DNA from: Gemmatimonadota bacterium
GTDB taxonomy: Bacteria > Gemmatimonadota > Gemmatimonadetes > JACCXV01 > JAHWKZ01
Assembly (NCBI GenBank): GCA_025937815.1
Contig: JAICQP010000001.1
Span: 67,891 to 101,234, forward strand
Direction: 5' to 3'
Length of the DNA stretch: 33,344 nt
Shown: in pieces, positions 7,474 to 33,194 of the stretch
Layout: each line of letters begins with the position of its first letter
Position numbering within the stretch: position 1 is the stretch's first letter
Notes under the pieces: generated by a model
What the model saw: the letters and a program-made list of their open reading frames with translations, nothing else
Database searches by the model: none
Told to the model about the DNA's origin: nothing
Translations under genes and position numbers: made by a program

Positions 7474-8678
7474 AGATCCTGCACGTCGTCACCGCCTGGC
7501 CGCGCGATCCGGAGGACGTGATCACGCCGTGGCTGGTGACGCTGGCCGAGAAGCAGGCCGCGCGCGGCCACGACGTCGACGTGCTGGCCCCGTCGTGGCG
7601 CGGGCTCGGGGACCAGCGGGGGACGGGGTACGCGGTGCGCCGGTTCCGCTACGCGCCCGCACGCTGGGAGCGGCTGACCCATGAGGAGACCGTGCCCGAT
7701 CGCCTGCAGCGCCATCCCGCGTATCTGGCGCTCGTGCCCGAGTACCTGGGAGCGGGCGTGGCGGCCGCCTGGAGGCTGGGCCACAGGCGCGGGTACGACG
7801 TCGTTCACGTGCACTGGGCCGTGCCGCACGGTCTCGCCGGTTGGGCCGCGGCGCGCGCGGCGCGGGCCTCCCTGGTGACGACGTTCTACGGCGCCGAGAT
7901 CCGGTGGGCGGAGAGGCGCTTTCCGCCGGCGCGCGCGTTCTTGCGCTGGTACTGCCGACGCTCGCGGCTGGTGGCGATCTCCGAGAGCACGCGCGCGATG
8001 ATCGCGCCCTATGCCGAAGGTCGCCCGGTGACGGTGATCCCGTACGGGGTTCCGCTGCCGGAGGAGGAGCCGGGCATGGAGGTGCGGCGGGAACCCGGCG
8101 CGCGCGCCGAGCCCTCTGGGCCTCCGCGGATCCTGTTCGTCGGCCGGCTCGTGGCCCGGAAGGGAATCGACCGCCTCCTCGAAGCGGTGGCCACGATCGC
8201 CGACCGCGAGTGGCGGCTCGAGATCGTCGGCTTCGGTCCGGAGCGCGATCCGCTCGAGGGGCGCGCGGCGGAGCTCGGACTATCGGACCGCGTGGAGTTC
8301 CTGGGTCGCGTCTCGAGCGACGAGCTGGTCGCGGCCTACCGCCGCGCGGCGTGTTTCGTCCTGCCCGCAACGCTCGACGAGCGGGCGGATACGGAGGGCC
8401 TCGGGGTGGTGCTGCTGGAGGCGATGTCGTACGGCGTGCCGGTCGTCGCCACCAGGAGGGGGGGCATCGTCGACGTTGTCGAGGACGGCCGCACGGGGCT
8501 GCTGGTCGAGGACGAGCCGGCGGCGATCGCGCGCGCGGTGGCGGCGGTCCTCGATGATCCCGCAAGAGGCCGCGCTCTGGGCATCGCCGGCCGCGCGAGC
8601 GTGCGCGAGCGATTCGGGTGGGATAGTATCGTGGACCGCCTCGACGCCGTGTACCGTTCCGCATCTGAACGGTCGTGA
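7470..8678 (+). CDS. Glycosyltransferase family 4
   Basis: VKILHVVTAWPRDPEDVITPW; ILFVGRLVARKGIDRLLEAVA; TEGLGVVLLEAMSYGVPVVATRRGGI; GTG start overlaps previous stop. Confidence 0.9.
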   Translation: MKILHVVTAWPRDPEDVITPWLVTLAEKQAARGHDVDVLAPSWRGLGDQRGTGYAVRRFRYAPARWERLTHEETVPDRLQRHPAYLALVPEYLGAGVAAAWRLGHRRGYDVVHVHWAVPHGLAGWAAARAARASLVTTFYGAEIRWAERRFPPARAFLRWYCRRSRLVAISESTRAMIAPYAEGRPVTVIPYGVPLPEEEPGMEVRREPGARAEPSGPPRILFVGRLVARKGIDRLLEAVATIADREWRLEIVGFGPERDPLEGRAAELGLSDRVEFLGRVSSDELVAAYRRAACFVLPATLDERADTEGLGVVLLEAMSYGVPVVATRRGGIVDVVEDGRTGLLVEDEPAAIARAVAAVLDDPARGRALGIAGRASVRERFGWDSIVDRLDAVYRSASERS

Positions 8679-9412
8679 GCAGCGCGTCGTACTACGTCCG
8701 GCACGTGAGCGGGCCCGAGTACCGCGCATCGCGTGTCCGCAAAGCCGAGCTCGTGTACGCGATGTGCGCCGAGCACCTGGCGGCCGGCGGCCGGATCGTA
8801 GATCTGGGCGCCGGGACCGGCATCATGACCCGCGCGCTCGAAGCGTTGAGCGGACGACCCATCGTGGGCTTCGAGATCGACCGAGCCTTCATGCAGGAGA
8901 CCGCGCGCATGGCCGTGGCCGATCTGGAGGAGCTTCCAGTCCCCGACGGGGCGATCGACTTCGGCATCGCCAACCACGTGTACGAGCACGTCGCGAACCT
9001 GGATAGCTTCTTCGCGGAGATCAGGCGCGCGCTGTCGCCCGGCGGTCGGGTGTACCTGACGGCCGGTAACCGTTTCGCGCTGATCGAGCCGCACTACCGG
9101 ATCCCCACGCTCTCGTGGTGGCCGCGCACCGTCTCTGATCGGCTGCTCCGCTGGAGCGGCCGCGGGGAATCCTACGCCGACATCCGCTTCACGACGCGAT
9201 CCCGGCTGGTGCGGACCGCCGCCCGGCACGGGCTCGTGCTCGAGGACGTCACCGACGAGGCGCTGACCACCCAGCTCGATCGCTACGAGAGCCTGCCGGG
9301 CCGCATCGCGGGCCGGGCTAGCCGGCTCCTGCCGGGCCCCGTCCGGGGCCGGCTCCTCGAGCTGGCATCGCCCCAGTGGTTCTTCTTCGTGCGCCACGCG
9401 GGTGCGGCATGA
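8675..9412 (+). CDS. SAM-dependent methyltransferase (class I)
   Basis: GGRIVDLGAGTGIMTRALE, IDFGIANHVYEHV, LSPGGRVYLTAGNRFALIEPHY. Confidence 0.85.
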   Translation: MSSASYYVRHVSGPEYRASRVRKAELVYAMCAEHLAAGGRIVDLGAGTGIMTRALEALSGRPIVGFEIDRAFMQETARMAVADLEELPVPDGAIDFGIANHVYEHVANLDSFFAEIRRALSPGGRVYLTAGNRFALIEPHYRIPTLSWWPRTVSDRLLRWSGRGESYADIRFTTRSRLVRTAARHGLVLEDVTDEALTTQLDRYESLPGRIAGRASRLLPGPVRGRLLELASPQWFFFVRHAGAA

Positions 9413-11841
9413 GCGCCGCCAAGCGGAAGGGGAAGGCCAAGCCGGCGGCACCCGGCCGGCCGGCGGGGAAGCCGGCGCCGGCGAAGAAACCGCCGCGGGT
9501 GCGGAGCGAGGACACCTCGCCCGAGATGGAGCGACGCGTCCGCTGGGCCGTCCTCGGCGCCATGGCCGTCGCGACGATCGCCTTCTTCGCGTCGTTCGTC
9601 TTCGACGGCGACGCGATGCTCTTCGGCACCGACATGCTCGCCCAGGCATACCAGAGCCGCGCCTTCGCGGTCCAGGAGGTTCTCGCGGGCCGCGGGCTGC
9701 CGCAGTGGAACCCGTACGTGTACGGCGGGCTCCCGTACCTGTCGATCCTGCCCTACCCGGTGTACTACCCTACTTCGCTCCTCTACTTCGTGATCGACCT
9801 CCACCGCGCGATCGGCTGGGCGTTCGTGCTCCACTTCCTCCTGGCCGGGGTGCTCGCCTACGCGCTGGCGCGGGAGCTCGGCCTCAAGGCCGGCGCGGCG
9901 GCGGTGACTGGAGTCGCGTACATGTTCACCGGCTACCTCGTGAGCCATCTCTATGCGGGGCAGGACGGGCGCATGTTCGCGATGACGTGGACGCCGGCCG
10001 TGTTCCTGTTCGCCGAGCGGGCCATCGCGCGCCGCCGGTTCCACTGGTTCCTGTGGATGGCGGCCGTGGTCGCGCTCCAGGTCTTCACGCCACACGTCCA
10101 GATGATGTACTTCGCCGCCATGGCGGTCGGCGCATACGTCCTGTTCCGGCTCCACCGACTCAGGGTCGCGCTGGGGGAGTGGCGTACGCCGCTCGTGCTC
10201 CTGGCCGGGTTCGCGGGCGCCTACGTCCTGGCCGGACTGATCACGCTGGTGGAGGTGTGGCCCACCTGGAACATGGTCCAGTTCTCCCACCGCGCCGAGC
10301 GGGGGTACGAGTACGCCTCGTCCTGGTCCATGCCGGTCCAGGAGACCGTGGCCATGATCTGGCCGCGGTTCCAGGGCTACCTCGAAGGCTACTGGGGCAC
10401 GAACCCGTTCAAGCTCCACACCGAGTACCTGGGCGCGGTTCCGGTCCTGCTCGCGCTCCTCGCCCTGACCGTCCGGCGGGACGCGACCGTCTGGTTCTTC
10501 GCCGCGCTCGCGGCGCTCGGCCTCGCGTTCGCCTGGGGCGGTGCGACGCCGCTCCACCGCGTCTTCTACTGGATCCTCCCGATGATGAAGTCCTTCCGCG
10601 CGCCGGCCATGATGTACTCGATCGTCGCTCTCGCGGTCATCGTCCTCGCGGGCCATGGCGCGCAGGCGCTCTACGACCGGCGGGCGGAGCTCGCCGACGG
10701 ACGCCACGTGGCGTGGAAGGTGATCGGGGGACTCGCCGCGCTCTGGATCGTCCTCTGGTTCTGGGCGGCCGGCTCCCCGGAGGGGTTCGGCGGATTCTGG
10801 CGGGGGCTACTCTATGGGGGATCGCTCGAGCCCGCGCGCGCGCAGGCGGCCTCGGCCGCGATGCCCGGGTTCGCCCGCGGGTTCGGACTGTTCGCGCTCT
10901 TCTGGGCGCTCGGCGCGGGGATCTGCTGGCTGGCGGCCCGGGAGCGGATCGCCGCGCTCGCCGCCTGCCTCGCGCTCGCGTTCCTGGCCGGCGCCGATCT
11001 GTGGCTCGTCGACCGGGACTTCTATGGGGTCGTGCCCGCCGAGCGGCTGGTCGAGCCGGGCCCCGCCGTCGAATGGCTGCGGGAGCAGCCCGAGCCCTTC
11101 CGGGCGCTGCCCCTGCCCGACGCGTTCGGACCCAACGACCTCATGCTGTTCGGCATCCAGACCGTCACGGGATCCCAGAACTTCCGCCTCCGCTGGTGGG
11201 ACGACCTCGTCGGCGAGGGCGGAGCGCGGCTGGCGGAGACCAAGCTCTGGCAGCTCCTCAACCTCCGGTACGTGATCGCGGGGCGACCGCTGGAGCTGGA
11301 GGGCCTCGAACCCGCGTTCGACGGCGGGCCGATCGTCTACCGATTCGACGGGACCGCGGGTGGCGCGTGGCTCGTCCACGAGGCGCGGACGCGGCCGGCC
11401 GGCGAGACGCCCGCGTCGGCGTTGCTCGACGACTCCTTCGACCCGCTGCGGACGGCGCTGCTGGAGCCCGGCGTGGCGCTGCCCCCCACGGCGCCCTCCG
11501 GGGGGCCGGCCTCCGCACCGGCGTGGACGATCCGCGAGCCCGATCGCCTCGCGCTGGATGTGGAGCCGGCCGCCGACGGGGTCCTCGTCCTCTCCGAGAT
11601 ATGGCATCCCTACTGGCGCGCGCGGGTCGACGGAGAGTCGGCCGAGGTCCTACAGGTCGACGTCGCGCTGCGGGGGATTCCGGTGACCGCCGGGCGCCAC
11701 ACCGTCGAGCTCGAGTTCCGCGACCCGCACGTCACCTACGGGGCGTGGGGGAGCGCGATCGGCCTCGCCATCCTGGTGGGCCTGCTGGTGGCGACCCGCG
11801 GACGACGCGACCCGGCTTCGTCGGAGCGGACGTCCGCGTGA
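9409..11841 (+). CDS. YfhO-family-like polytopic membrane protein
   Basis: TM-rich, GTDMLAQAYQSRAFAVQEVLAGRGLPQWNPYVYGGLPY near the N-terminus, C-terminal WHPYWRARVDGE...LRGIPVTAGRHTVELEF extracytoplasmic domain. Confidence 0.8.
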   Translation: MSAAKRKGKAKPAAPGRPAGKPAPAKKPPRVRSEDTSPEMERRVRWAVLGAMAVATIAFFASFVFDGDAMLFGTDMLAQAYQSRAFAVQEVLAGRGLPQWNPYVYGGLPYLSILPYPVYYPTSLLYFVIDLHRAIGWAFVLHFLLAGVLAYALARELGLKAGAAAVTGVAYMFTGYLVSHLYAGQDGRMFAMTWTPAVFLFAERAIARRRFHWFLWMAAVVALQVFTPHVQMMYFAAMAVGAYVLFRLHRLRVALGEWRTPLVLLAGFAGAYVLAGLITLVEVWPTWNMVQFSHRAERGYEYASSWSMPVQETVAMIWPRFQGYLEGYWGTNPFKLHTEYLGAVPVLLALLALTVRRDATVWFFAALAALGLAFAWGGATPLHRVFYWILPMMKSFRAPAMMYSIVALAVIVLAGHGAQALYDRRAELADGRHVAWKVIGGLAALWIVLWFWAAGSPEGFGGFWRGLLYGGSLEPARAQAASAAMPGFARGFGLFALFWALGAGICWLAARERIAALAACLALAFLAGADLWLVDRDFYGVVPAERLVEPGPAVEWLREQPEPFRALPLPDAFGPNDLMLFGIQTVTGSQNFRLRWWDDLVGEGGARLAETKLWQLLNLRYVIAGRPLELEGLEPAFDGGPIVYRFDGTAGGAWLVHEARTRPAGETPASALLDDSFDPLRTALLEPGVALPPTAPSGGPASAPAWTIREPDRLALDVEPAADGVLVLSEIWHPYWRARVDGESAEVLQVDVALRGIPVTAGRHTVELEFRDPHVTYGAWGSAIGLAILVGLLVATRGRRDPASSERTSA

Positions 11842-12812
11842 GCGAGTCCGGCCACGCGCGGGGCCGATGGCTCCTCCGGTGGTTCGAGCGGATCGCCGGA
11901 GGGGTCGTGGTCGCGTTCCTCGCGGTCTACCTGGCGCGGAACTGGTCGGAGGTGACCGCCCACCCGTGGACGATCCACTGGACGCGGATGGCGCTCGCCA
12001 CAATCGGCGTGCTCGGCGCCTACAGCGTGTTCGTCCTCTGCTGGCGGCGGATCCTCGGCCACCTCGGTGGCCGGCTCTCCATCCGGGACGCGCACCGGGT
12101 GTGGTACATCGGCAACCTCGCGCGCTACGTCCCCGGGAAGGTCCTCCAGCTCGCCGGCACGGCGTACCTGGCGCGCGCCAAGGGCGTCAGCCCGGTCCTG
12201 ACGGTGAGCGCGAGCCTCACGTCCCAGCTCTTCGTGCTGGCCGCCGGTCTGGTCGTAGCCGCGGCGACCCTGCCCGAGCTCGCGGCCGCGGCGGGCCGGG
12301 AGGCCGTATGGCCGATCGGGTTCGGGATCGCCGCGCTGCTCCTGCTCTTCGTGCTGACGCCCGCGCTCGACTTCGCGTACCGGCTGGCTCTCCGCGCGAT
12401 CGGCAGGAGCGAGTACCACGAGGCGGTGCCCGCCCGCGAGCGGATCGTGCTCCTCGCCGCGAACCTGGCGGCGTGGATGGTCTTCGGCGCGGGCTTCTGG
12501 CTCTTCGTCCGCGCGCTCACCCCGATCGAGGCCGACACGCTGGTCTCCATGATCGGCATCTCGGCCGCGGGATACGTCGGCGGCTACCTGGCGGTCTTCG
12601 TCCCCGGCGGGCTCGGCGTCCGCGAGGGCCTCTACGCGGTCCTCCTCGCGGCGTACGTGCCCCCGACCATGGCGGTCGCGATCGCGATCTTCTGCCGGCT
12701 CTGGCTCACCGCGTGCGAGCTCCTGCCGGTGTCCGTCCTGGTCGCGCGGTACGGGCTCGCCGATCTGCGGGCGGGCGGCTCCGAGCCGGCGCCGAGGCCC
12801 ATCCATGGGTAG
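11838..12812 (+). CDS. Lysylphosphatidylglycerol synthase TM-region / flippase-like integral membrane protein
   Basis: RYVPGKVLQLAGTAYLARAKGVS motif and GYVGGYLAVFVPGGLGVREGLYAVLL typical of the LPG_synthase_TM/UPF0104 family. Confidence 0.8.
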   Translation: MSESGHARGRWLLRWFERIAGGVVVAFLAVYLARNWSEVTAHPWTIHWTRMALATIGVLGAYSVFVLCWRRILGHLGGRLSIRDAHRVWYIGNLARYVPGKVLQLAGTAYLARAKGVSPVLTVSASLTSQLFVLAAGLVVAAATLPELAAAAGREAVWPIGFGIAALLLLFVLTPALDFAYRLALRAIGRSEYHEAVPARERIVLLAANLAAWMVFGAGFWLFVRALTPIEADTLVSMIGISAAGYVGGYLAVFVPGGLGVREGLYAVLLAAYVPPTMAVAIAIFCRLWLTACELLPVSVLVARYGLADLRAGGSEPAPRPIHG

Positions 12813-21267: not shown

Positions 21268-21599
21268 CCCGCCCCGTCTTTTCCGCCGAGGACGTGCGGG
21301 CGGCCGCGCGCAGGGGGGAGCTCACGCTCGCCGTGCCGCCGGACGCGATCGTGACTCCACTGGCGCGCGACGAGGCCGGTCGGCGGGGGATCGAGCTGGT
21401 CGAGGTTAAACCGGGGGCGGCGGCTTCTACGAGGTCCACCGCGGCGGCGGGACTCGCCGGGTCTCCGACCCGTTCGGCTACCTGCGATCCCGACGACGTG
21501 GAGCGGATCGTCGCGCGCGTGCGGGCGCGTATGCCGGGCGCCGACGCGTCGCAGGTCCGGGACATCGCCCGGCGGCTCCTCGAGCGGCTGGGCGGATGA
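21264..21599 (+). CDS. Small BMC-associated protein: EutQ/BMC-accessory-like N-terminus and amphipathic C-terminal helices
   Basis: [41 protein letters not shown] followed by low-complexity linker and [40 protein letters not shown] start overlaps ParA stop. Confidence 0.75.
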
Positions 21600-22615
21600 G
21601 CTCGCCGCGCGATCTCCTGGCGGATCTGTGCGAGCGCGCCCGGAAGCTCGGCCCGAAGAGGGTCGTCCTCGCCGACGGCGCCGACCCGCGCGCGGCCCGA
21701 GCCGCCCGGCGGCTCACCGACGAGCGGTTGGCCGCTGTCACGCTGCTCGGCGGTCCCATCGCGGTTCGGGAGGCGGCCGACCGGGCGGGCGTCGATCTCG
21801 ACGGGATCGCGCTCCTCACGCCGTCGAGCTCACCGCGGCTCGACGCCTACGCCGAAGAGCTCGCCGCCCGTTGGAAGGCGCGGGGCAGAACGGCGGGCGC
21901 GCGCGAAGCGCGGGCGCTGCTCGAGAGCGGGCCGGGGCTCGGGGCATGGCTCGTCGCCCGGGGCGAGGCCGACACCTGCGTGGGCGGGAACGTCTCGACC
22001 ACGGCAGAGACCGTGCGCGCCGCGATCCTCGCGATCGGCACCGCGCCCGGGATCGCGACCGTCTCTTCGGTATTCCTCATGGTCGCCGCCGATGGGACCA
22101 CATACACCTTCGCCGATTGCGGCGTCGTCGCCGACCCGACGCCGGACCAGCTCGCCGACATCGCGCTCGCGAGCGCCGACACCCACCGCGCGTTGACGGG
22201 GGAGGAGCCGAGGGTCGCGATGCTCTCCTTCTCGACCAAGGGGAGCGCGAACCACCCGCGGGTCGAAAAGGTCGTCGAGGCGACCCGCAAGGTGCGTGCG
22301 CGTCGCCCCGCGCTCGCCGTGGACGGGGAGCTTCAGCTCGACGCCGCGATCGTCCCCGAGGTGGCCGCAGCCAAGGCCCCCGGCAGCCCCCTGGCCGGCC
22401 GCGCCAACGTGCTCGTGTTTCCCGACCTGGACAGCGGCAACATCGGCTACAAGCTCGCCCAGCGGTTCGGCGGGATGACCGCGCTGGGACCGCTCCTCCA
22501 GGGCCTCGCAGCGCCCATGCACGACCTCTCGCGCGGCGCGTCCGCCGACGACATCGTGAACGTCGCGATCATCGGCTGCGTCCAGTCGGCGAGCGCGGGC
22601 GACCGTCGACGATGA
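21596..22615 (+). CDS. eutD: Phosphate acetyltransferase (EutD/Pta type)
   Basis: PTA_PTB family: [97 protein letters not shown]. Confidence 0.9.
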
Positions 22616-22637
22616 ACGGCTTTGCCGGAAGGCGACC

Positions 22638-24735
22638 ATGAGATACGGGTATCCGCTATTCGTCGCGTTCTCTCTCGGCTTGACGTTTGCTATCCCTGCG
22701 CCGGCCCAGGAAGACGTCGATCCATACCTGTGGCTGGAGGACGTCGAGGGGGATCGGGCGCTGGCCTGGGTCGAGGATCGGAACGAGGCCACCCTCGACG
22801 TCTTCGCCGGACGCGCCGTATACGATTCGATCTACGGCCAGAGCCTGGCGATCCTGAATTCCGCGGACAAGATCGACTACCCCGCCATCGTGGGCGATCG
22901 GATCTACAACTTCTGGCAGGACGCCGACCACGAGCGCGGGATCTGGCGGCGGACGAGCTGGGACTCGTACCTGACCGGCGACCCCGCCTGGGAGACGGTT
23001 CTCGACATCGACAGCCTCGCGGCCCGGGAAGGCGTGGAGTGGGCCTTCGGCGGGGCCGCATGCCTGGCGCCCGCGTATCGCCGCTGCCTCCCGCGGCGGA
23101 TCGGATGCGGTCGAGATCCGCGAGTTCGACGCCGAAGCGATGGAGTTCGTGGACGGCGGGTTCTTCCTGCCGGAGGCGAAGAGCAGCGTCGCCTGGCGCG
23201 GGCCGGACGTGCTCCTCGTCACCTCGGACTTCGGCGCGGGAACGTTGACCGAGTCCGGCTATCCCCGGATCGCGAAGCTCTGGAGACGGGGGACGCCGCT
23301 CGAGGAGGCCGAGGTCCTGTTCGAGGGAGAGGTCTCCGACGTCGGCGTGTGGGCGGGATCCGTCGACACGGCCGAGGAGCGCTTCACGCTGATCTACCAC
23401 GCCCCGACGTTCTTCGAGAGTCGGATCCATATCCTCGACGACGAAGGCGAGCTGCATCTGTTGGATCTCCCGCTCGACGCCGTCCCCGACCTGACCGGAA
23501 GGCACCTCGTCGTCTACCTCCGCTCGCCATGGGAAGTCGGCGGGCGGGGCTTCGCGCAGGGCTCCGTCCTGGCGATCGAGTACCAGCGATTCCTCGATGG
23601 AGACCGCGCGTTCGACCTCGTGGTCGAGCCCGGACCGCGCATCACCGTCGAGGGCGTGCGGGTAGTCCGGGGGGAGCTCGTGGTCCACGTCCTCGACAAC
23701 GTGATCGGCCGGCTGCTACGCTACCGCCACGAAGGCGAGACATGGATCGCCGAGCCGGTGCCCGCGCCCGACATGGGCGCGGTGAACGTCGTCGCGGCCG
23801 ATCCGCTCTCCGAGCGCTGGTTCTTCACGTTCGGCACCTGGAACCAGCCGACCACCCTCTACCTGGCCGATCCAGCCGGCGTGCGCGAAGTGCGGCGTCT
23901 GCCGGCCATGTTCGACGCGGAGGGTCTCGTCGTGCGGCAGCTCGAGGCGACCTCGGGGGACGGCACTCGGGTGCCGTATTTCCTCGTCCAACGGGAGGAC
24001 CTCGCCGAGGACGGTGAAAACCCGACTTTGCTCTACGCCTACGGCGGATTCCAGGTATCGTCGACCCCCTCCTACAGCGCGATCCGCGGCAAGGCCTGGC
24101 TGGAGCGCGGCGGGGTGTTAGCCGTGGCCAACATCCGCGGTGGTGGGGAGTTCGGGCCGGACTGGTGGAAGGCGGCCCAGAAGGAGAACCGCCAGCGGGC
24201 GTACGACGACTTCCTGGCGGTCGCGGAGGACCTCGTCGACCGCGGGATCTGCTCGCCGGAGCACCTCGGGATCGAAGGAGGGAGCAACGGAGGCCTGCTT
24301 GTCGGCGTCGCGATGACCCAGCGCCCGGAGCTCTTCCGGGCGGTCGTGGTCGAGGTCCCGCTGCTCGACATGCGGCGGTACCACACGCTCCTGGCGGGGG
24401 CCAGCTGGGTGGCGGAGTACGGGGATCCCGACGACCCCGCGGAGTGGGAGTACATCCGGCGCTACTCGCCGTACCAGAACGTCTCTCCCGACGAGGAGTA
24501 CCCGCGAGCCCTGTTCTACACCACCACCCGCGACGATCGCGTCCATCCCGGGCACGCGCGGAAGATGGCGGCGAAGATGCTGGACATGGGGCACCCCGTC
24601 TGGTACTTCGAGAACACGGAGGGCGGGCATGGAGCCGGCGTCACGCCGGAGCAACGGGCGCGCATGTACGCGATCATCTACACCTACCTGACCGAGCGAT
24701 TGATGGAGGGTGTCCCGGCCGGCCGACTTGAATAG
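22638..24735 (+). pseudogene. Prolyl oligopeptidase family (S9A) serine peptidase, frameshifted near 23088
   Basis: N-term half in frame of 22638 (signal peptide; QEDVDPYLWLEDVEGDRALAWVEDRN), then homology continues in the frame of ORF 23140-24735 (FFLPEAKSSVAWRGPDVLLVTSDFG... GGSNGGLLVG, DDRVHPGHARKMAAKM, EGGHGAG catalytic Ser/Asp/His). Confidence 0.8.
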
Positions 24736-24800
24736 CGGGGGCGTCGGCTTTAAACTCGCTCAACGGCTGGCCCCACCGCGATCGCTTCTGGGCCCCTGGC
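24722..24800 (+). pseudogene. Relic of a second phosphotransacetylase 3' region
   Basis: Conceptual translation ADLNSGGVGFKLAQRL..LGP matches intact Pta [19 protein letters not shown] (10/16 identical in the core); roughly 70% nucleotide identity over about 50 nt by eye. Confidence 0.6.
24728..24756 (+). promoter_or_regulatory. Putative promoter for BMC-H/aldehyde dehydrogenase (TTGAAT-N17-TAAACT), inside the pta relic
   Basis: TTGAAT 24728-24733 and TAAACT 24751-24756 with 17-nt spacer. Confidence 0.35.
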
Positions 24801-24896
24801 CGGTCGCCTTGAAAGGACTCCGATCTCTAGCACCGCGCCGTTCGCCGGCGCGCGAGACGCTCATCCGCACCACCCCTCGGCCGGGAGGAGGACCGA

Positions 24897-25172
24897 ATGG
24901 AAGCACTGGGGATGATCGAAACGCGCGGGCTGGTGGCGCTCATCGAGGCCGCCGACGCGATGGTCAAGGCAGCGCGTGTGACGCTCGTCGGGTACGAGAA
25001 GATCGGCGCTGGGTACGTGACGGCGCTGGTCCGCGGCGACGTCGCGGCCTGTCAGGCCGCCGTGGACGCCGGCGCGGCCGCCGCCAAGAAGGTTGGCGAG
25101 GTCGTCTCGGTGCACGTGATCCCGCGGCCGCACACGGACCTGGACGCGCACTTCCCGATCGTCGTCGAGTAG
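24897..25172 (+). CDS. BMC-H hexameric shell protein (EutM/PduA type)
   Basis: [79 protein letters not shown], canonical single BMC domain. Confidence 0.96.
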
Positions 25173-25194
25173 CAGTCTTCTCCGATCCGGGCGC

Positions 25195-26691
25195 GTGGCC
25201 TCGTGTCGCGCGCCCACCCGGCCGCCCGTGCCCCTGACCGAACGCGAGATCCGCACGATCGTAGATCGCATCACGGGCGAGCTGGACCGTAGCGGCCGCG
25301 CCGCTACCCCATCTGCCGTCGCTACCGCCGCTCGGCGGGAATCCTCCCCAAGTCCAACGACCGACCGGTCGCACAACCTCCTCGGCATCTTCGAGACGGT
25401 CGATCAGGCCGCCGCTGCTGCACGGTCCGCCCAGGCGGAGATCCGCACTCTGGAGCTCAGGGATAGGATCATCGCGAACCAGCGGAAGCGGCTTGGCGAG
25501 TCGGCTTTAGCACTCGCGGAGGAGGCGGTGGCCGAGACGAAGCTCGGCAACGTTCGCAGCAAGACCCTCAAGAACCAACTCGTGATCGATCGCACGCCGG
25601 GCACCGAGGACCTCCACCCGGAGATCCTTTCTGGCGACCACGGCCTGACCCTGACGGAGCTCGCGCCTTGGGGGGTGATCGGGGCAGTGACGCCATCCAC
25701 GAACCCGGCCGCGACGATCATAAACAACGGGATTTCCATGATTGCGTCGGGGAACGCGGTCGTGTTCGGCGCCCACCCGCTCGCGAAGAAAGTCACCAAT
25801 CACACGATCCACCTCATGAACGCGGCGTCCGCCGAGGTCGGCGGGCCGGAGACGCTCCTGACCGCAGTCTCCGAGCCCTCCATCGAGGCGGCGCAGGCCA
25901 TGTTCCACCACCGGGGGATCGACCTGCTCGTGGTGACCGGCGGCGGTGGGGTCGTCCGCGCAGCTCAGGAGTCGGACAAGCGTGTGATCGCCGCCGGGCC
26001 GGGGAACCCGCCGGTAGTCGTAGACCGGACCGCCGATCTCGCTCAGGCCGCACGGGACATCGTCGCCGGCGCGGGGTTCGACAACAACATCGTGTGCACG
26101 TGCGAGAAGGAGATCCTCGCCGAGGGTTCGATCGCCGACGAGTTGCTCTCCGAGCTCCAGCGGAACGATGCCGTCCTCCTGTCGATCGACGAGGCCGAGG
26201 CGCTGGCCCGTGCGATCCTCACCGACTATCCGGGGCCCGAGGCGCGGATGAACAAGGAATTCGTGGGGAAGGACCCGTCCGTCCTGGGGGAGCTGATCGG
26301 CAAGCGTGTCCCGGAGTCGACGCGGCTACTCGTCGCCGAGACGGGGAAGGACCACCCGTTCGCATTCCTCGAGCTCCTGACCCCCGTGATCCCCCTGATC
26401 CGTTGCCCGGACGTCGACACGGCGATCGACTGGGCCGTCGAGCTCGAGCACGACTTCAAGCACACGGCCTGCATGCACTCCAAGAACCTCGACGCGCTCC
26501 ACCGGATGGCGGTGGCGATGAACTGCTCGATCTTCGTCAAGAACGGCCCCAACCTGGCCGGGCTGGGGTTCGGCGGGGAAGGACCCACCGCGATGACGAT
26601 CTCGACCCCTACCGGCGAGGGCCCCACGTCCGCCCGTACCTTCATCCGCCGCCGTCGCTGCGTGCTGGTCGATTACTTCCGAATCGTGTGA
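25195..26691 (+). CDS. CoA-acylating aldehyde dehydrogenase (EutE/PduP type) with N-terminal encapsulation-peptide-like helix
   Basis: N-term PLTEREIRTIVDRITGEL; ELAPWGVIGAVTPSTNPAATIINNGISMIASGNAVVFGAHP; NNIVCTCEKEI catalytic Cys; alternative GTG start at 25228. Confidence 0.94.
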   Translation: MASCRAPTRPPVPLTEREIRTIVDRITGELDRSGRAATPSAVATAARRESSPSPTTDRSHNLLGIFETVDQAAAAARSAQAEIRTLELRDRIIANQRKRLGESALALAEEAVAETKLGNVRSKTLKNQLVIDRTPGTEDLHPEILSGDHGLTLTELAPWGVIGAVTPSTNPAATIINNGISMIASGNAVVFGAHPLAKKVTNHTIHLMNAASAEVGGPETLLTAVSEPSIEAAQAMFHHRGIDLLVVTGGGGVVRAAQESDKRVIAAGPGNPPVVVDRTADLAQAARDIVAGAGFDNNIVCTCEKEILAEGSIADELLSELQRNDAVLLSIDEAEALARAILTDYPGPEARMNKEFVGKDPSVLGELIGKRVPESTRLLVAETGKDHPFAFLELLTPVIPLIRCPDVDTAIDWAVELEHDFKHTACMHSKNLDALHRMAVAMNCSIFVKNGPNLAGLGFGGEGPTAMTISTPTGEGPTSARTFIRRRRCVLVDYFRIV

Positions 26692-26777: not shown

Positions 26778-27731
26778 ATGACCCGGCTGGCATACTCGTT
26801 CCCCCGACGGCTTCTCCTGCCGATAGTACCCGCTTTATCGTGTCTTCTCCTCGCAGCGTGCGAGAAGGAGTATCCCACCGGTGCTTCGAGGGGGTCGATT
26901 GATCCTGCAGCCAAGCCCTCCAGCGGGGATCCGATCGTCTCGTCGACGGAGCCGGCCAGCGCTCCTCAGGACACGACGCTCGATGTCGTGGTCGTGGGTT
27001 CGAACTTCGACTCAGGTTCCCGCGTGGATTTCGCAATCGATGAGGTGACGACGGAAAAGGTCCGTACCAACTCCACGACGTTCGTCACTCCCAAGAAGCT
27101 CATTGCCAACATCACGATCGCGCTCGATGCCATTCCAGATCGATACGACGTGATAGTCACGACCACAAAAGGCAAGCGGGGCATCGGGATCGAGCGGTTC
27201 GAGGTCACGCTTCGCCAGGGCAGATCCAACCTCTACACGGTAACGTTCGGCGGGGACTTGGAGGGTTCCGTATCGGGAGTAATCGTCGATTTCAGGGATC
27301 CCTTGAAACAGATCACCACAAGCGGTGTGACCTTCCGTCCCGTTGCCGCAACCGGGGATCGAAGCGTGTGTCCCCGGATCAACGGAACTCCCGTCAGCGC
27401 TGCGGATTGGGCCGGGTTCTCTGATTGGGCGTGGCTCGGTGCCATGGATTTGGCTCGCCGGCGGAGCGGCAGTTTTCACCTGCAGCTTCTCGGGGATCAA
27501 GAGGATCAAGATGGGGGACATATCAACCTCGTCGTGAACCATACGCCGCTCACCGACACAGTCAACCTGACGACAGGCATCGCTTTCACGGAATTCCGCA
27601 ACGCCCGTGCGTTGGTGGGCCTTGCGAGTTGGGCAGAAACCGATGGGAGCGGTAGCCCTGTAACCGACGATCGCGATCGGTGCATCAACTTCACGATTAC
27701 TGCAGCTCCTTCTGGAACGGCCCCTCGGTAA
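26778..27731 (+). CDS. Lipoprotein with IPT/TIG-like N-terminal region and C-terminal domain shared with next gene
   Basis: Lipobox LLLAAC; STEPASAPQDTTLDVVVVGSNFDSGSRVDF... resembles an IPT/TIG fold pattern; C-terminal half aligns with 27818-28429 product. Confidence 0.75.
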   Translation: MTRLAYSFPRRLLLPIVPALSCLLLAACEKEYPTGASRGSIDPAAKPSSGDPIVSSTEPASAPQDTTLDVVVVGSNFDSGSRVDFAIDEVTTEKVRTNSTTFVTPKKLIANITIALDAIPDRYDVIVTTTKGKRGIGIERFEVTLRQGRSNLYTVTFGGDLEGSVSGVIVDFRDPLKQITTSGVTFRPVAATGDRSVCPRINGTPVSAADWAGFSDWAWLGAMDLARRRSGSFHLQLLGDQEDQDGGHINLVVNHTPLTDTVNLTTGIAFTEFRNARALVGLASWAETDGSGSPVTDDRDRCINFTITAAPSGTAPR

Positions 27732-27817: not shown

Positions 27818-28429
27818 ATGTGCTCGTACCGAAAGCAGATCCTCCTGGTGGCAACCCTCGGATTCCTCGCAGCCTGTGAGGAAAGTTTCGGCCCTACGGA
27901 CACACCAACATCGCTCGAGCCGGCCGCCAAGCAAGCGCCCGCAGCGGTGTACGACTACGCGTTCACGGGAGACATCGAGGGAACGCTACTGAACGTGTCC
28001 GCGAGTCCCGCGGATCCGTTCAAGCAACTGAACTCCGGCGGACTCGACTTCGAGTTCGTCGCGGCTTCCGGGGACACCACCGCGTGCAACGAGAAGCAAC
28101 CCGACCTGACCCCCTCGGTCGCCGATTGGGGAGGCTATGCCTTGGCTCCGTGGGACGTGCAAGTCGATCTGAGCCGCAGAAAGCGCTCCGCGATTCATCT
28201 CCAGATCACGGGCACCCAGAACGACGGAGCGGGATCGATCAACCTCGCCGTCAACGACGTCCCATTCGCGGACGAGAACAACAACGGAGTGACGGCTGTC
28301 ATCGAGTTCCAGGACGCGAGGGCGCTCGTGTCAGCGTTATCGTACTCCGATACTCTCGACAGCGGGGGACCGGACTACGACCCGGACGATCGCTGCGTGA
28401 ATTTCACGATCACCGCAACAAAGCGTTAG
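27818..28429 (+). CDS. Lipoprotein, paralogue of the C-terminal half of the preceding protein
   Basis: Lipobox GFLAAC; shared blocks GDIEGTL, DPFKQ, AASGD, SVADWGGYA, DLSRRKRSAIHLQ, INLAVN, FQDARALVSALS, DDRCVNFTITA. Confidence 0.78.
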   Translation: MCSYRKQILLVATLGFLAACEESFGPTDTPTSLEPAAKQAPAAVYDYAFTGDIEGTLLNVSASPADPFKQLNSGGLDFEFVAASGDTTACNEKQPDLTPSVADWGGYALAPWDVQVDLSRRKRSAIHLQITGTQNDGAGSINLAVNDVPFADENNNGVTAVIEFQDARALVSALSYSDTLDSGGPDYDPDDRCVNFTITATKR

Positions 28430-28457
28430 CCTGCGGGAATTTCCCTCGGACTTAGGA

Positions 28458-28498
28458 GATCGTTCTGCGACGGCGGCTCCGTGAACGATCGGAGCCGC
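28458..28498 (+). terminator. Overlapping inverted repeats downstream of the lipoprotein pair (terminator-like / competing hairpins)
   Basis: gatcgttc 28458-28465 pairs with gaacgatc 28483-28490; gcggctcc 28473-28480 pairs with ggagccgc 28491-28498. Confidence 0.5.
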
Positions 28499-28832
28499 TT
28501 GTCGTATGCTCATGTTCAACCACTTTCAAGCTTCATGACACGGATTCTGAAGTGCTCCAATGCGGTGTCGTGCATCGCCACGTCGTTGTCGGGAGCCGGG
28601 ATCAGTCCGCTTCCATTGGTCTGATCGCAGCTCAGGAGCTGGGTTTCTTCGTCATTGAACGACTCTGCAACCCCGGATTGTCCTGGCCTGGATATTCGGA
28701 GAGGCAGCACGCAGAGATCGCGCAATCCGATGCCGGCTTCTCGTTCCATATCCGTAGTAGAACGCTCAATCCCGGCTGGGTCCTCGCTCCCCGGAGCTTC
28801 ACGTCTTCCGGAAAGAGGGTGTTTCTGATACA

Positions 28833-29567
28833 ATGACGCGGTCGGGACAAGCAGGAGCGTGGAATGCCGCGCTCGCGGCATGTCCCTCGATTCCCGGGAA
28901 ATCGGTGGCATTGACCGACGAGCTTCCGCTCGAACTCGCCAGTCTCCTAAGCGCGTCCGACAACGCCTCGGAGGAGCGCGCCTGGCAAAGCTTCATTGCG
29001 GTCCACAGCCGATTGATCCTGCACACCCTTCATCGGCTCGGCGGCGATCATGACACCGTGATGGACCGGTACGCGTACGTTATCGAGCAGCTTCGTCGAG
29101 ACCGATACCATCGGCTTCGAACCTACTCGCCGACCGAGCGAAGCAAGTTCACGACATGGCTGGTGGTGGTGGTCCATCGACTCGGACTCGACCACCATCG
29201 GCGGCGCTATGGCTCGTCAAGCGACGCGAAGGGGAACCATGATGCTCGCGTGACCCGCAGGCGTCTTGCGGACCTGCTTGCCGACCGGGTCGACGTCGAG
29301 ACCATGGCGGCGGCGGAGGCTGGAGCCCCCGACTCGGGGATCCGCTCGGAGGACCTGCATCGCTTGTTGAAAAGAGCCCTGGAACACCTCGATCCGCGGG
29401 ATCGGCTGTTGCTCCGTCTTCGCTTCGAGCTCGACCTGCCGGCGCGGAGGGTGGCCGAGCTCATGGGGCTGCCAACTCCCTTTCACGTCTATCGGCGCTG
29501 CAACCGGCTGTGCGAAGGGTTGCGGGTCGACCTCGCGCGAAGGGGCGTGGAGGATCAGGAGCCGTGA
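28833..29567 (+). CDS. ECF-like RNA polymerase sigma factor
   Basis: Region-2-like AWQSFIAVHSRLILHTLHRLGG...YVIEQLRRDRYHRLRTYSPTERSKFTTWLVVVVHRLGLDHHRRRYG; region-4-like LEHLDPRDRLLLRLRFELDLPARRVAELMGL; followed by zinc-finger anti-sigma. Start may be GTG 28905. Confidence 0.82.
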   Translation: MTRSGQAGAWNAALAACPSIPGKSVALTDELPLELASLLSASDNASEERAWQSFIAVHSRLILHTLHRLGGDHDTVMDRYAYVIEQLRRDRYHRLRTYSPTERSKFTTWLVVVVHRLGLDHHRRRYGSSSDAKGNHDARVTRRRLADLLADRVDVETMAAAEAGAPDSGIRSEDLHRLLKRALEHLDPRDRLLLRLRFELDLPARRVAELMGLPTPFHVYRRCNRLCEGLRVDLARRGVEDQEP

Positions 29568-29613
29568 GGATCCAGTCGGCAACTTCCCTGTGGGGCCGCG
29601 TTCCATATGAAGG

Positions 29614-30240
29614 ATGGATACGGCTATGCCTCGCTTCGCCATGGTCATTCCGATGACCCGCGTCGAGCATCTCGACCCGGGTTCGATGGCGGCGTATCTC
29701 GAGGGGAGGTGTGATTCGGAGGACCGCTCGCGCATCGAAGCGCATCTCGCCGAGTGCTCGGAATGTTGCGGAGAGCTGGTGGCGCTGGACCAGACGATTC
29801 GCACGCTGCCGAGTCGGAAGCGCGGCAGGACAGTGCTTCCTCTCCTTGCACTCGGGGCCGCCGCGGCGATTGGCGCGTTCATCGTTCTTCGCCCAGGGGA
29901 CAGGCCCGCGGAGCTCCCGGCGGGAGCACCGCCGATCGTCCAGCGATCCCGGCCGGAGTCGATCACTTCGATCGCGATCGTCGAGCCCGCTTCGGGGGCC
30001 AGGGTTGCGGCAGGCGAAGTGGTGTTGCGCTGGACGCCGGTCGAGCCCGAAGCCCGGTACCTGGTCACCGTGACGACCTCAGAGGGCGACAGCGTCTGGG
30101 CGCTTCTTACACCTGACTCCGCGGCGGCGATTCCCGTCGCACTCGACCAGGGCGGGGAGTATCTGTGGTACGTCGATGCGCTGTTGCCTGGCGGGGGAAC
30201 TGCGAGCAGCGGCATTCACCATTTCCAGGTGGTGCCGTGA
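29614..30240 (+). CDS. Zinc-finger (ZAS/zf-HC2-type) membrane anti-sigma factor with extracytoplasmic domain
   Basis: MAAYLEGRCDSEDRSRIEAHLAECSECCGEL (H-x3-C-x2-C); TM VLPLLALGAAAAIGAFIVL; periplasmic beta-rich region; start may be ATG 29626. Confidence 0.82.
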   Translation: MDTAMPRFAMVIPMTRVEHLDPGSMAAYLEGRCDSEDRSRIEAHLAECSECCGELVALDQTIRTLPSRKRGRTVLPLLALGAAAAIGAFIVLRPGDRPAELPAGAPPIVQRSRPESITSIAIVEPASGARVAAGEVVLRWTPVEPEARYLVTVTTSEGDSVWALLTPDSAAAIPVALDQGGEYLWYVDALLPGGGTASSGIHHFQVVP

Positions 30241-33194
30241 GGCGGTGGACCGTTGTCCTCGGAATCGGTGGAGCGGTGGCTGGAGCCGTCGCGCTTGTCG
30301 TGGTACTGCGGGAGTCGCCGGGACGCGTGGACGGCACCGTTGGGCCCGGCGCGCCGATGTCAGCCCTGGATTCGCTTATCGCGTCGGCGGAACCGCTGTA
30401 CTGGGACGGTGACTTCGAAGGGGCGCAGGCAATCTGGCGCGAGGCGCGCGCTCGCGCGATCGCGAGCGGTGATTCGATAGCCCTCGCCGGTTCGCTGACG
30501 TGGCTCGGCCTCGCCGCGTTCCGTCTGGGAGAGTACGAAGAAGCGCGCAGCCTGGGAGAGGATGCGCTCGCCCTCAAGCTCCGCCTCGATCTGAAGGACC
30601 ACCTTCCCAAATCCTACAACGCGCTCGGGCTCCTCGCCCTCAGCGAGGGGCGGCTCGGCGATGCCGCGGAGCTCTTCCGGCAGACCGCAGAGGCCTCACG
30701 GGCGGTCGACGATTCGGAGACCCTCGCCAAGGCGTCCAACAATCTGGGCCTCGTCTATACCGACCTCGGAGAGTTCGCCCGCGCGCGCCAGGGGTTCGAG
30801 GAAAGTGTGCGCGCGGCGCGAATGCTCGGCGATCCCCTGATCGAAGGCCGCGCCCTCAGCAACCTCGGGATGCTCGAATCGCGGCTCGGAGATCCGCTCG
30901 CCGCTGTCGACTTCTTCGAGCAGGCGCGTTTGCGGTACCGCGAGTCCGAGGACGTCACCGGGGAGCAGCACACGCTGGGCCAGCTCGGGGTGGCTCACGC
31001 GGCGCTGGGGGAGCCGCGCCTAGCGATCGCGGTCCTCGACAGCGCCCTCTTGCAGGCGCGCGAGCACGGTCTCCGACAGGAAGAGGCGAGCGATCTCGAG
31101 CAGATCGGGGAGATCCATGCCGAGGCCGGCGATCATCGACGCGCACTGGCATACTATCGGCAGGCTGGGGAAATCAACGCCGACCTGGGCCTGGTGATCG
31201 AGACCGGTGTCGATCTCCGGCGCGAAGCCGAGTCGTACATGGCGCTCGGCGACCGCGATCAGGCGCGTGCGCTGGCGGAGCGGGCCCTGGCCAGCCACCG
31301 CGCAGCCGGCGCGCCGGTCGATGCCCTGGAAGACCTCCTCGTGCTGGCCGATTTCGAGCGTTCTCCGGTCGCGTCGCTTAGATACCTGGACGAAGCGCGC
31401 GAGCTCGCGCTGCGACTCGACTCCCGCGCCGCGCGGCTCGGTGTCGCGCTCGCGGAGGCACGCCTCGCGGAGAGGCATGACGATCCCGAGGTTGCACTTG
31501 CGGCCCTGGAACGCGCCGAACCCGACTTGGCCGCTGCGAGCTACCTCGTTGTCGCGGAGGTGGAGGGACTTCGCGCCCAGGCGCTGACGCGTGTGAAGCG
31601 CCTCCCTCTGGCGGTGGCCGCGGGTCGCCGGGCGGTGGCTGCGGTCGAAAGAGCGCGCGGTGGCTACGCATCGGGCTACCTCAGAACCACGTTGCTCAGC
31701 GACCGCCGCGAGCTCTATGCACAACTCGTCGACGTCCTCCTCGAGATGGGGGAGGTCGAGGAGGCGTTCCAGGTCGCCGATGCCTCGCGGGGACGGGCTC
31801 TCCTCGAACACATAGCTCACGGGAGTCCGAATGGACGGATTCCTGCCTCCCCGCACGATCAAGGGGAGAGGCTGCTCCGCGAGATCGACGGCCTGGCGAC
31901 ACTTCTGGCCGAAACCGAGGCGATCCCTCCCGAAGAGCGGGATATCGACCACTCGACGACGATCTCGGGGATCGCCAGGCGTCTTGCGGACACCCGAGCC
32001 CGGTACGAGTCCCTGACCATCCACGTACACGAGAGAGACCCTGCCGAAGCACTCCTCGGCGGTCAACCGACAACGTCACTTGAAGTGCAAGCAGCTCTTA
32101 ACTATAGCGAGGCTCTTGTCGAGTATTACATCACGCCCCGAGTCCTGCGGATCTTCGTGTTGACTCCGGATCAGGTCGCGGTGCACAGCCGGCCAGTCCC
32201 CGCCACCGATCTCAGCCGCCAGGTTCGCCTGGCTCGCGAGCTCACCGGTGGGGCAACTGTCGGCAAAGGCCCGGATCCCGACGCCATCCTTAGGCGACTC
32301 CATGCTGAGCTCATCCAGCCGGCCGTTCAGGGTGGGGCGCTCGAAGGGGTCAGCCGGCTGATCATCGTCCCGCACGATGTACTGGCATACCTGCCCTTCG
32401 CGGCGTTACGGAATGGGGAGACAGGGCGGTATGTCGCGGAGCAGTACGTGCTGCTCGATTTGCCCTCCGCGGGCGCCCTGCCGGCTCTGCGGAGCACAAC
32501 CGGTGGTTCCGGGCGTCGGGGCCACACCGTCGCAATGGTTCCTTTTCCGCAGGATTTGCCCGGGTCGCTAATCGAGGGGAAGGCGATCGCACAAACTCAG
32601 GATCGCACCTCCTTGTTCGAGGGAGACCGGGCTACCGAATCGGCACTGCGCCGGGCCTTGTCTTCGGAGACGACGGTACATGTCGCTTCTCATGGGGCGC
32701 TCAACTTCCGAAACCCTCTCTTCTCGCGAATCGAGCTCTTCCGGAAGGTCATCGGGGACCCCGCGGACGATGGCCGGCTCGAAATCCATGAGATCCTGGA
32801 CTTCCAGATCCGAAGCCCGCTCGTGTTCCTGTCGGGCTGCGAAACTGGCGTCGGAGAGGCCTGGTCGAGCGGCTTCGCGCGAGGTGAGGATTACGCTACG
32901 CTGGCCAGTGCCTTCCTCTACGCGGGTGCCGGATCCGTCGTCGCAACCCTCTGGCGGATCGACGATCGGGGGGCGGCCGAGCTGGCGACTCGTTTCTACC
33001 GGCACCTCCGTGAGCACTCCCCGGCCGAGGCCCTCGCCCTGGCCCAGCGGGAGCTGATTCGCTCCGAGATTTACCAGAGGCCGTACTACTGGGCGGGGTA
33101 CCGGATCTCGGGCGACGATGCCGGTTCGCCCTCGCGGTCTGCCCGAGCACGCCTCGACTCACAAAACTATGCCATGTTCTGGAGTCCGCCCTAG
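30237..33194 (+). CDS. Membrane-anchored TPR-repeat CHAT-domain (caspase-like) protease
   Basis: N-terminal TM; tandem TPRs (e.g. ASNNLGLVYTDLGEFARARQGFEESVRAARMLGD); CHAT His/Cys motifs VHVASHGALNFRNPLFS and PLVFLSGCETGVGEA; GTG overlaps anti-sigma stop. Confidence 0.9.
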   Translation: MRRWTVVLGIGGAVAGAVALVVVLRESPGRVDGTVGPGAPMSALDSLIASAEPLYWDGDFEGAQAIWREARARAIASGDSIALAGSLTWLGLAAFRLGEYEEARSLGEDALALKLRLDLKDHLPKSYNALGLLALSEGRLGDAAELFRQTAEASRAVDDSETLAKASNNLGLVYTDLGEFARARQGFEESVRAARMLGDPLIEGRALSNLGMLESRLGDPLAAVDFFEQARLRYRESEDVTGEQHTLGQLGVAHAALGEPRLAIAVLDSALLQAREHGLRQEEASDLEQIGEIHAEAGDHRRALAYYRQAGEINADLGLVIETGVDLRREAESYMALGDRDQARALAERALASHRAAGAPVDALEDLLVLADFERSPVASLRYLDEARELALRLDSRAARLGVALAEARLAERHDDPEVALAALERAEPDLAAASYLVVAEVEGLRAQALTRVKRLPLAVAAGRRAVAAVERARGGYASGYLRTTLLSDRRELYAQLVDVLLEMGEVEEAFQVADASRGRALLEHIAHGSPNGRIPASPHDQGERLLREIDGLATLLAETEAIPPEERDIDHSTTISGIARRLADTRARYESLTIHVHERDPAEALLGGQPTTSLEVQAALNYSEALVEYYITPRVLRIFVLTPDQVAVHSRPVPATDLSRQVRLARELTGGATVGKGPDPDAILRRLHAELIQPAVQGGALEGVSRLIIVPHDVLAYLPFAALRNGETGRYVAEQYVLLDLPSAGALPALRSTTGGSGRRGHTVAMVPFPQDLPGSLIEGKAIAQTQDRTSLFEGDRATESALRRALSSETTVHVASHGALNFRNPLFSRIELFRKVIGDPADDGRLEIHEILDFQIRSPLVFLSGCETGVGEAWSSGFARGEDYATLASAFLYAGAGSVVATLWRIDDRGAAELATRFYRHLREHSPAEALALAQRELIRSEIYQRPYYWAGYRISGDDAGSPSRSARARLDSQNYAMFWSPP

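Follow-up and report, generated by a model that had tools for sequence, protein, structure and literature searches.

Here we describe a three-gene unit in a 33,344-nt stretch of DNA from a Gemmatimonadota bacterium (contig JAICQP010000001.1, positions 67,891 to 101,234; the whole stretch is referred to as the window). The unit codes for an extracytoplasmic function (ECF) sigma factor, a zinc-finger anti-sigma factor, and an exported protein with tetratricopeptide repeats (TPR) and a caspase-like CHAT domain. We tentatively read it as a split transmembrane sigma switch of the type of DdvA from Myxococcus xanthus, in which the CHAT protein of the window's clade would most likely be the site-1 protease; we hold this reading at just short of even confidence. 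The gene order is conserved in two sister clades, TPR-CHAT is predicted to face the same periplasmic side as the C-terminal domain of the anti-sigma factor, and the His and Cys residues of the CHAT active site are invariant in the window's clade.

Conservation of the three-gene unit

The survey covered the neighborhoods of approximately 100 CHAT genes, drawn from close relatives and from 200 genomes of the window's phylum. In the tree of CHAT domains, the window protein fell within a clade of 10 members (Shimodaira-Hasegawa-like approximate likelihood ratio test [SH-aLRT], 99), whose sister (81) was a clade of 16 (98). Neighbors were counted at loci with at least 1.7 kb of readable sequence upstream of CHAT and were called with profiles built from the surveyed loci themselves, not with curated ones. 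Within the window's clade, 9 of 10 members had zinc-finger and sigma genes 5' of CHAT. Of the sister-clade loci, 11 of 12 had a sigma gene 5' of CHAT; at 10 of these 11 the anti-sigma factor was encoded by a separate gene in between, and at 1 it was fused to CHAT. Among the other CHAT genes of the phylum, both neighbors were present at 9 of 66, so the association is kept in both clades far above chance. Members fetched later displayed the same gene order. A first-pass annotation, made from the letters of the window alone, had proposed the three genes as a unit; their order and coordinates were confirmed (Table 1), as was the 4-nt overlap between the anti-sigma stop and the CHAT start.

Distant CHAT lineages (L046, L048, L067, L084, L093, and L108) have sigma and zinc-finger neighbors too, and the link has therefore arisen or persisted more than once. 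Among 80 named loci, a profile scan picked up a single clear trio from beyond the phylum, in Terrabacteria group bacterium ANGP1 (L134); it belongs to the sister type that lacks the catalytic His (ATSG). Scanning genome contigs with single proteins as queries gave no match. The only other CHAT gene of the window's genome (L045, G000:C41) is 33% identical, stands without sigma and anti-sigma genes, and is cut by the contig end.

Predicted topology, active site, and relation to known systems

The anti-sigma factor carries the motif H44-x3-C48-x2-C51, and H-x3-C-x2-C was found in all 12 aligned sequences. An AlphaFold model based on 12 homologues displayed a three-helix N-terminal domain, a transmembrane (TM) helix at about residues 73 to 91, a low-confidence linker (residues 92 to 116), and a beta sandwich at about residues 120 to 207, which Foldseek matched to fibronectin type III (FN3) modules. 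A single TM helix is predicted to join a cytoplasmic, putatively zinc-binding anti-sigma domain to a beta domain in the periplasm; the earlier reading already had a TM anti-sigma factor with a periplasmic beta domain, which is now modeled as FN3. The 25-residue linker between the helix and FN3 is probably flexible in this model. At two of the distant loci (L046 and L048), the periplasmic part of the anti-sigma factor is TPR-like in place of FN3.

The window CHAT protein begins MRRWTVVLGIGGAVAGAVALVVVL, with a positively charged start and a hydrophobic TM helix at about residues 4 to 25 but no lipobox; this helix had already been noted. Nearly all close orthologues possess a lipoprotein signal peptide. 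Lipoboxes were found at L033, L034 (LAGC), L035, L068 (WLGC), L082 (LAAC), L105 (IAAC), L230 (LALAC), L232 (LSGC), L233, L234 (LAAC), L236 (LPAC), and L237. At locus L042 (genome G014, 8220-12500, minus strand), the zinc finger-TM-FN3 part and TPR-CHAT are joined in one 1,426-aa frame, in which a short linker replaces the CHAT signal peptide. This is a single case from one assembly and the only such fusion among the approximately 100 CHAT frames. Because of the export signals of the orthologues and the L042 fusion, TPR-CHAT is predicted to be periplasmic, on the side of the FN3 domain. A cytoplasmic CHAT was rejected on the same two grounds. The proposal of the first-pass annotation had hung on this topology, and the CHAT domain and the putative cleavable region of the anti-sigma factor do appear to share one side of the membrane.

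The CHAT domain covers the full length of PF12770 (186 bits). The TPR-CHAT model had a mean predicted local distance difference test (pLDDT) score of 79, and its fold matches were separase, Csx29/TPR-CHAT, LGN-type TPR proteins, and DdvA. In an alignment with the TPR-CHAT of Craspase, His819 and Cys868 fall on the conserved His and Cys that form its catalytic dyad; the two motifs are thus intact, as first described. Judged by these residues, the window protein would belong to the CHAT peptidase family, which is defined by a CHAT domain with a His-Cys dyad. Both residues are invariant in 10 of 10 members of the window's clade, although identity to the window protein is only 37 to 49%.

In the sister clade, the catalytic His is replaced in 16 of 16 members (by Y in 13 and by S, A, or F in the others), while the Cys is kept; the replacement maps to one change on the tree, and members added later agree. 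This clade is a putative pseudo-protease lineage, which should be unable to cleave by the usual dyad. Since the His was lost and the locus kept, proteolysis cannot be the whole function, and the function shared by both clades would be independent of CHAT catalysis. A universal proteolytic switch for all such loci was rejected, as the sister clade lacks the His. The His-less loci, which have the same sigma/anti-sigma order and CHAT products predicted to be exported, are L038-L044, L054, L058, L063, L065, L066, L070, L071, L075, L079, and L215-L220.

We compared the unit with known systems. A search of the PDB with the full-length CHAT protein gave mostly TPR matches, and the CHAT part alone was then used as the query. 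The best match of the CHAT profile was DdvA (8rot/8rw5; Bernal-Bernal et al. 2024, Sci Adv 10:eadp1053; E 2.5e-18), deposited as a CHAT domain-containing protein of 991 residues, and a fold search found DdvA independently (E ~7e-12). The profile match of the DdvA CHAT is confined to the C-terminal half (positions 145 to 298 of 313). A 2024 study reportedly assigns to DdvA a cytoplasmic domain that binds zinc, a TM helix, and a TPR-CHAT on the periplasmic side whose active site is incomplete, and is said to propose autoproteolysis in trans ahead of RseP. By sequence, the window unit would share with DdvS/DdvA an ECF sigma factor encoded adjacently, a zinc-finger domain with one TM helix, and a periplasmic TPR-CHAT. 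DdvA is the anti-sigma factor of the ECF sigma factor DdvS, and the signal that inactivates it was unknown as of 2015 (PMC4374960). DdvA unites anti-sigma factor and TPR-CHAT in one polypeptide, whereas the window encodes two proteins with separate membrane anchors from genes that overlap by 4 nt; only in L042 are they fused. Further differences are the FN3 domain on the anti-sigma factor, the full-length PF12770 CHAT, and the IPT/TIG lipoproteins alongside; moreover, no recurrent defense genes and no defense island were seen near the loci. As the single-polypeptide feature fails, we call the unit DdvA-like and not a DdvA; it is apparently a split version.

Csx29, a TPR-CHAT protein, cuts Csx30, the inhibitor of CASP-sigma, and the cut frees the sigma factor (PMC10028731); by analogy, a TPR-CHAT acting on a sigma inhibitor would therefore have a precedent. 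In Craspase, too, TPR-CHAT is encoded with an ECF sigma factor and its inhibitor, and the His, the Cys, and an N..NP..S motif align with those of the window protein. However, Csx29 is cytoplasmic and acts with Cas7-11 and a guide RNA, and Csx30 is not a zinc-finger membrane protein, whereas the window TPR-CHAT is predicted to be exported. No cas-like genes recurred at the loci and none were among the window gene calls (the whole genome was not searched), and membership in the type III-E Craspase systems was rejected because the loci lack cas-like neighbors. The papers searched described no ECF/zf-HC2/TPR-CHAT unit outside CRISPR. The route proposed below resembles the RseA/DegS/RseP sigma-E pathway, in which an anti-sigma factor that spans the membrane once is cut first by a periplasmic site-1 protease and then within the membrane by a site-2 protease. 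It differs in that the site-1 protease would be TPR-CHAT and not the PDZ-trypsin DegS, and in the zinc finger and FN3 domain of the anti-sigma factor. The RseA model scored 14 bits on the anti-sigma factor, against a cut-off of 165, which places it outside the RseA family; DegS itself was not searched for. A gene of the site-2 protease family M50 is present in the window's genome. The anti-sigma domain is that of the zinc-finger anti-sigma (zf-HC2/ZAS) family, in which the extracytoplasmic domains vary and ordinary members have no TPR-CHAT partner.

Lipoprotein genes and locus layout

Two lipoprotein genes precede the unit in the window (Table 1). The product of the first scored 19 bits with TIG, below the cut-off of 20.9, and 30.6 bits with NCBIfam NF058597 (cut-off, 30). 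With the IPT/TIG module as the query, matches were obtained in 18 of 390 genomes; in this set, a match lay within a few kilobases of 12 of 19 window-clade CHAT copies, often directly after CHAT. The CHAT and lipoprotein genes are 7 nt apart in L230 and overlap in L233 and L237. Across these lipoproteins only the TIG module is alike; what follows it toward the C terminus differs (L033 has a PQQ propeller, the others are unlike it). The remaining surveyed loci gave no homologue of the window's TIG protein. In the sister clade, the gene 3' of CHAT often encodes a lipoprotein with a Big_5 immunoglobulin (Ig)-like domain, several with RCC1 or PD40 propellers. Large Big_5 lipoproteins were seen directly 3' of the His-less CHAT in L038, L039, L040, L041, and L042, some as tandem copies. 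Given the TIG and Big_5 neighbors, TPR-CHAT is accompanied in both clades by Ig-like lipoproteins whose C termini vary. The window terminates at the contig end, with about 150 nt readable 3' of CHAT, so a downstream lipoprotein gene may escape view.

A strong predicted RNA hairpin is placed between the lipoprotein genes and the sigma gene; it has no U-tract and is absent from the terminator scan. It may end the lipoprotein transcript, which would make the sigma, anti-sigma, and CHAT genes a separate unit. Gene starts in the window were set mechanically, and that of the sigma gene is uncertain: homology begins at about residue 25, and a GTG at about position 28905 is an alternative start. In one genus, a second ECF sigma gene in the opposite orientation adjoins the sigma gene of the trio (L035:3902-5294 and L036:729-2127).

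Table 1. Features of the window discussed in the text
Feature	Position	Strand	Evidence or remarks
Part of a putative microcompartment locus, with a probable phosphotransacetylase	21596-26691		read from sequence only
Predicted small bacterial microcompartment (BMC) shell-like protein	24897-25172		
Predicted CoA-acylating aldehyde dehydrogenase	25195-26691		
Lipoprotein with IPT/TIG module (about residues 50-147)	26778-27731	+	lipobox LLAAC; proposed surface/sensor partner
Second lipoprotein	27818-28429	+	lipobox FLAAC; shares 42% identity with the C-terminal domain encoded by 26778-27731
Hairpin after the lipoprotein genes	28466-28506	+	RNA fold of -31.8 kcal/mol for 28455-28520, z -3.8
ECF sigma factor	28833-29567	+	TIGR02937, 60.8 bits (cut-off 42.9); directly 5' of the anti-sigma gene in relatives too
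Zinc-finger anti-sigma factor	29614-30240	+	zf-HC2 (PF13490), 31.2 bits (cut-off 22.2)
TPR-CHAT (caspase-like) protein, predicted exported and membrane anchored	30237 (GTG)-33194 (stop)	+	985 aa; TPR about residues 43-475, CHAT residues 683-960

Proposed mechanism and alternatives

From the gene order and its conservation, the export signals, the predicted fold, the active-site residues, the lipoproteins, the fusion, and the site-2 protease gene, we infer physical contact between TPR-CHAT and the anti-sigma factor, a cut in the latter, a signal, and a regulon. According to our model, the cytoplasmic zinc-finger domain of the anti-sigma factor would hold the ECF sigma factor at the inner membrane. 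TPR-CHAT would be anchored on the periplasmic side, by its uncleaved TM helix in the window and by lipid in nearly all orthologues, and would serve as the sensory arm of the anti-sigma factor, as the fused TPR-CHAT does in DdvA. The arm would be switched by a signal that the TPR superhelix reads, probably the state or a ligand of the neighboring IPT/TIG lipoproteins. The CHAT of the window's clade, with its His-Cys dyad intact, would then most likely make the site-1 cut in the periplasmic linker, after which a site-2 protease of the RseP type, together with cytoplasmic proteases, would complete the proteolysis of the anti-sigma factor and free the sigma factor. In the His-less sister clade, the arm would have to work without catalysis of its own, and binding alone can suffice in such relatives.

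Several observations weigh against this model. The linker shows no conserved cut-site motif in the alignment, and no shared ECF promoter motif above shuffles was found 5' of sigma in 9 + 17 loci. A CHAT orthologue at L034 (6688-10260, genome G030), 49% identical and with lipobox, His, and Cys, has no sigma or anti-sigma gene nearby. The lipoproteins are absent next to the trio in one genus (G027, G030, G051, and G319), and the sister clade keeps its locus with the His lost.

The main rival would make TPR-CHAT an output: the sigma factor, freed by another site-1 protease, would induce TPR-CHAT, which would mature or release the IPT/TIG lipoproteins at the cell surface. It draws on the CHAT and TIG genes, which are often adjacent on the same strand and overlap or nearly overlap (L230, L233, and L237), on the predicted export of both products as lipoproteins, on the constant N-terminal module and variable C-terminal domains of the latter, and on the fact that ECF operons commonly include their own targets. 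We nevertheless judge it unlikely, since the L042 fusion and the single-chain DdvA place TPR-CHAT on the anti-sigma factor itself and the His-less clade retains CHAT next to its lipoproteins. That same clade, in which Cys and gene order survived a single loss of the His in all 16 members, is an argument for regarding TPR-CHAT as a noncatalytic sensor or scaffold throughout. CHAT would then shield the anti-sigma factor from, or expose it to, a general site-1 protease, and the dyad of the window's clade would be incidental or minor, in line with the half-profile match of the DdvA CHAT. We consider this quite improbable, because incidental retention explains poorly why His and Cys stay invariant among proteins so divergent.

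A stress or defense circuit, which the first-pass annotation had also suggested, would follow DdvS/DdvA in that the sigma factor induces antiphage genes upon a cell surface signal of infection. DdvS, the nearest studied relative, controls an island with a cyclic-oligonucleotide-based antiphage signaling system (CBASS) and CRISPR-Cas (PMC12288465), and TPR-CHAT is a defense protein in Craspase. The neighborhoods do not support the link: no defense gene recurs within six genes of the trios, where only lipoproteins recur; no model of a defense protein outdoes the generic matches to TPR or CHAT; and the window neighbors read as housekeeping and microcompartment genes. A defense role thus seems very improbable. 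That the genes are chance neighbors would fit the 57 of 66 CHAT genes outside both clades that lack such neighbors and the solitary orthologue at L034; it is refuted by the retention of the unit in many genera of both sister clades, by the 4-nt overlap, and by the gene fusion, and we give it practically no credence. Of the first interpretation, the conserved unit, the intact His and Cys, and the same-side topology thus stood, and the defense role found no support in these neighborhoods; it had missed the IPT/TIG lipoproteins and the likeness to DdvS/DdvA.

In its fullest form, the split switch would be a previously undescribed four-part envelope system. A lipid-anchored, caspase-like protease in the periplasm would serve a zinc-finger anti-sigma factor as its dedicated site-1 protease. 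The TPR of this protease would bind lipoproteins at the cell surface in which the IPT/TIG module is constant and the C-terminal domains vary, and the sister lineage would have turned the protease into a pseudo-enzyme that signals by binding alone. This extended version is possible but doubtful. To our knowledge, the signal and the activation step of DdvA are unproven, partly since sensor, protease, and anti-sigma factor form one chain. In the split version, each of the three can be deleted, mutated, or purified separately. The two clades, one with the catalytic His and one lacking it, offer a natural test of whether sigma release is driven by CHAT proteolysis, and the lipoprotein partners are a first candidate for the input sensed by the periplasmic TPR arm. 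If the split switch is true, gene expression within the cell would be under the control of a caspase-like domain that lies beyond the inner membrane.

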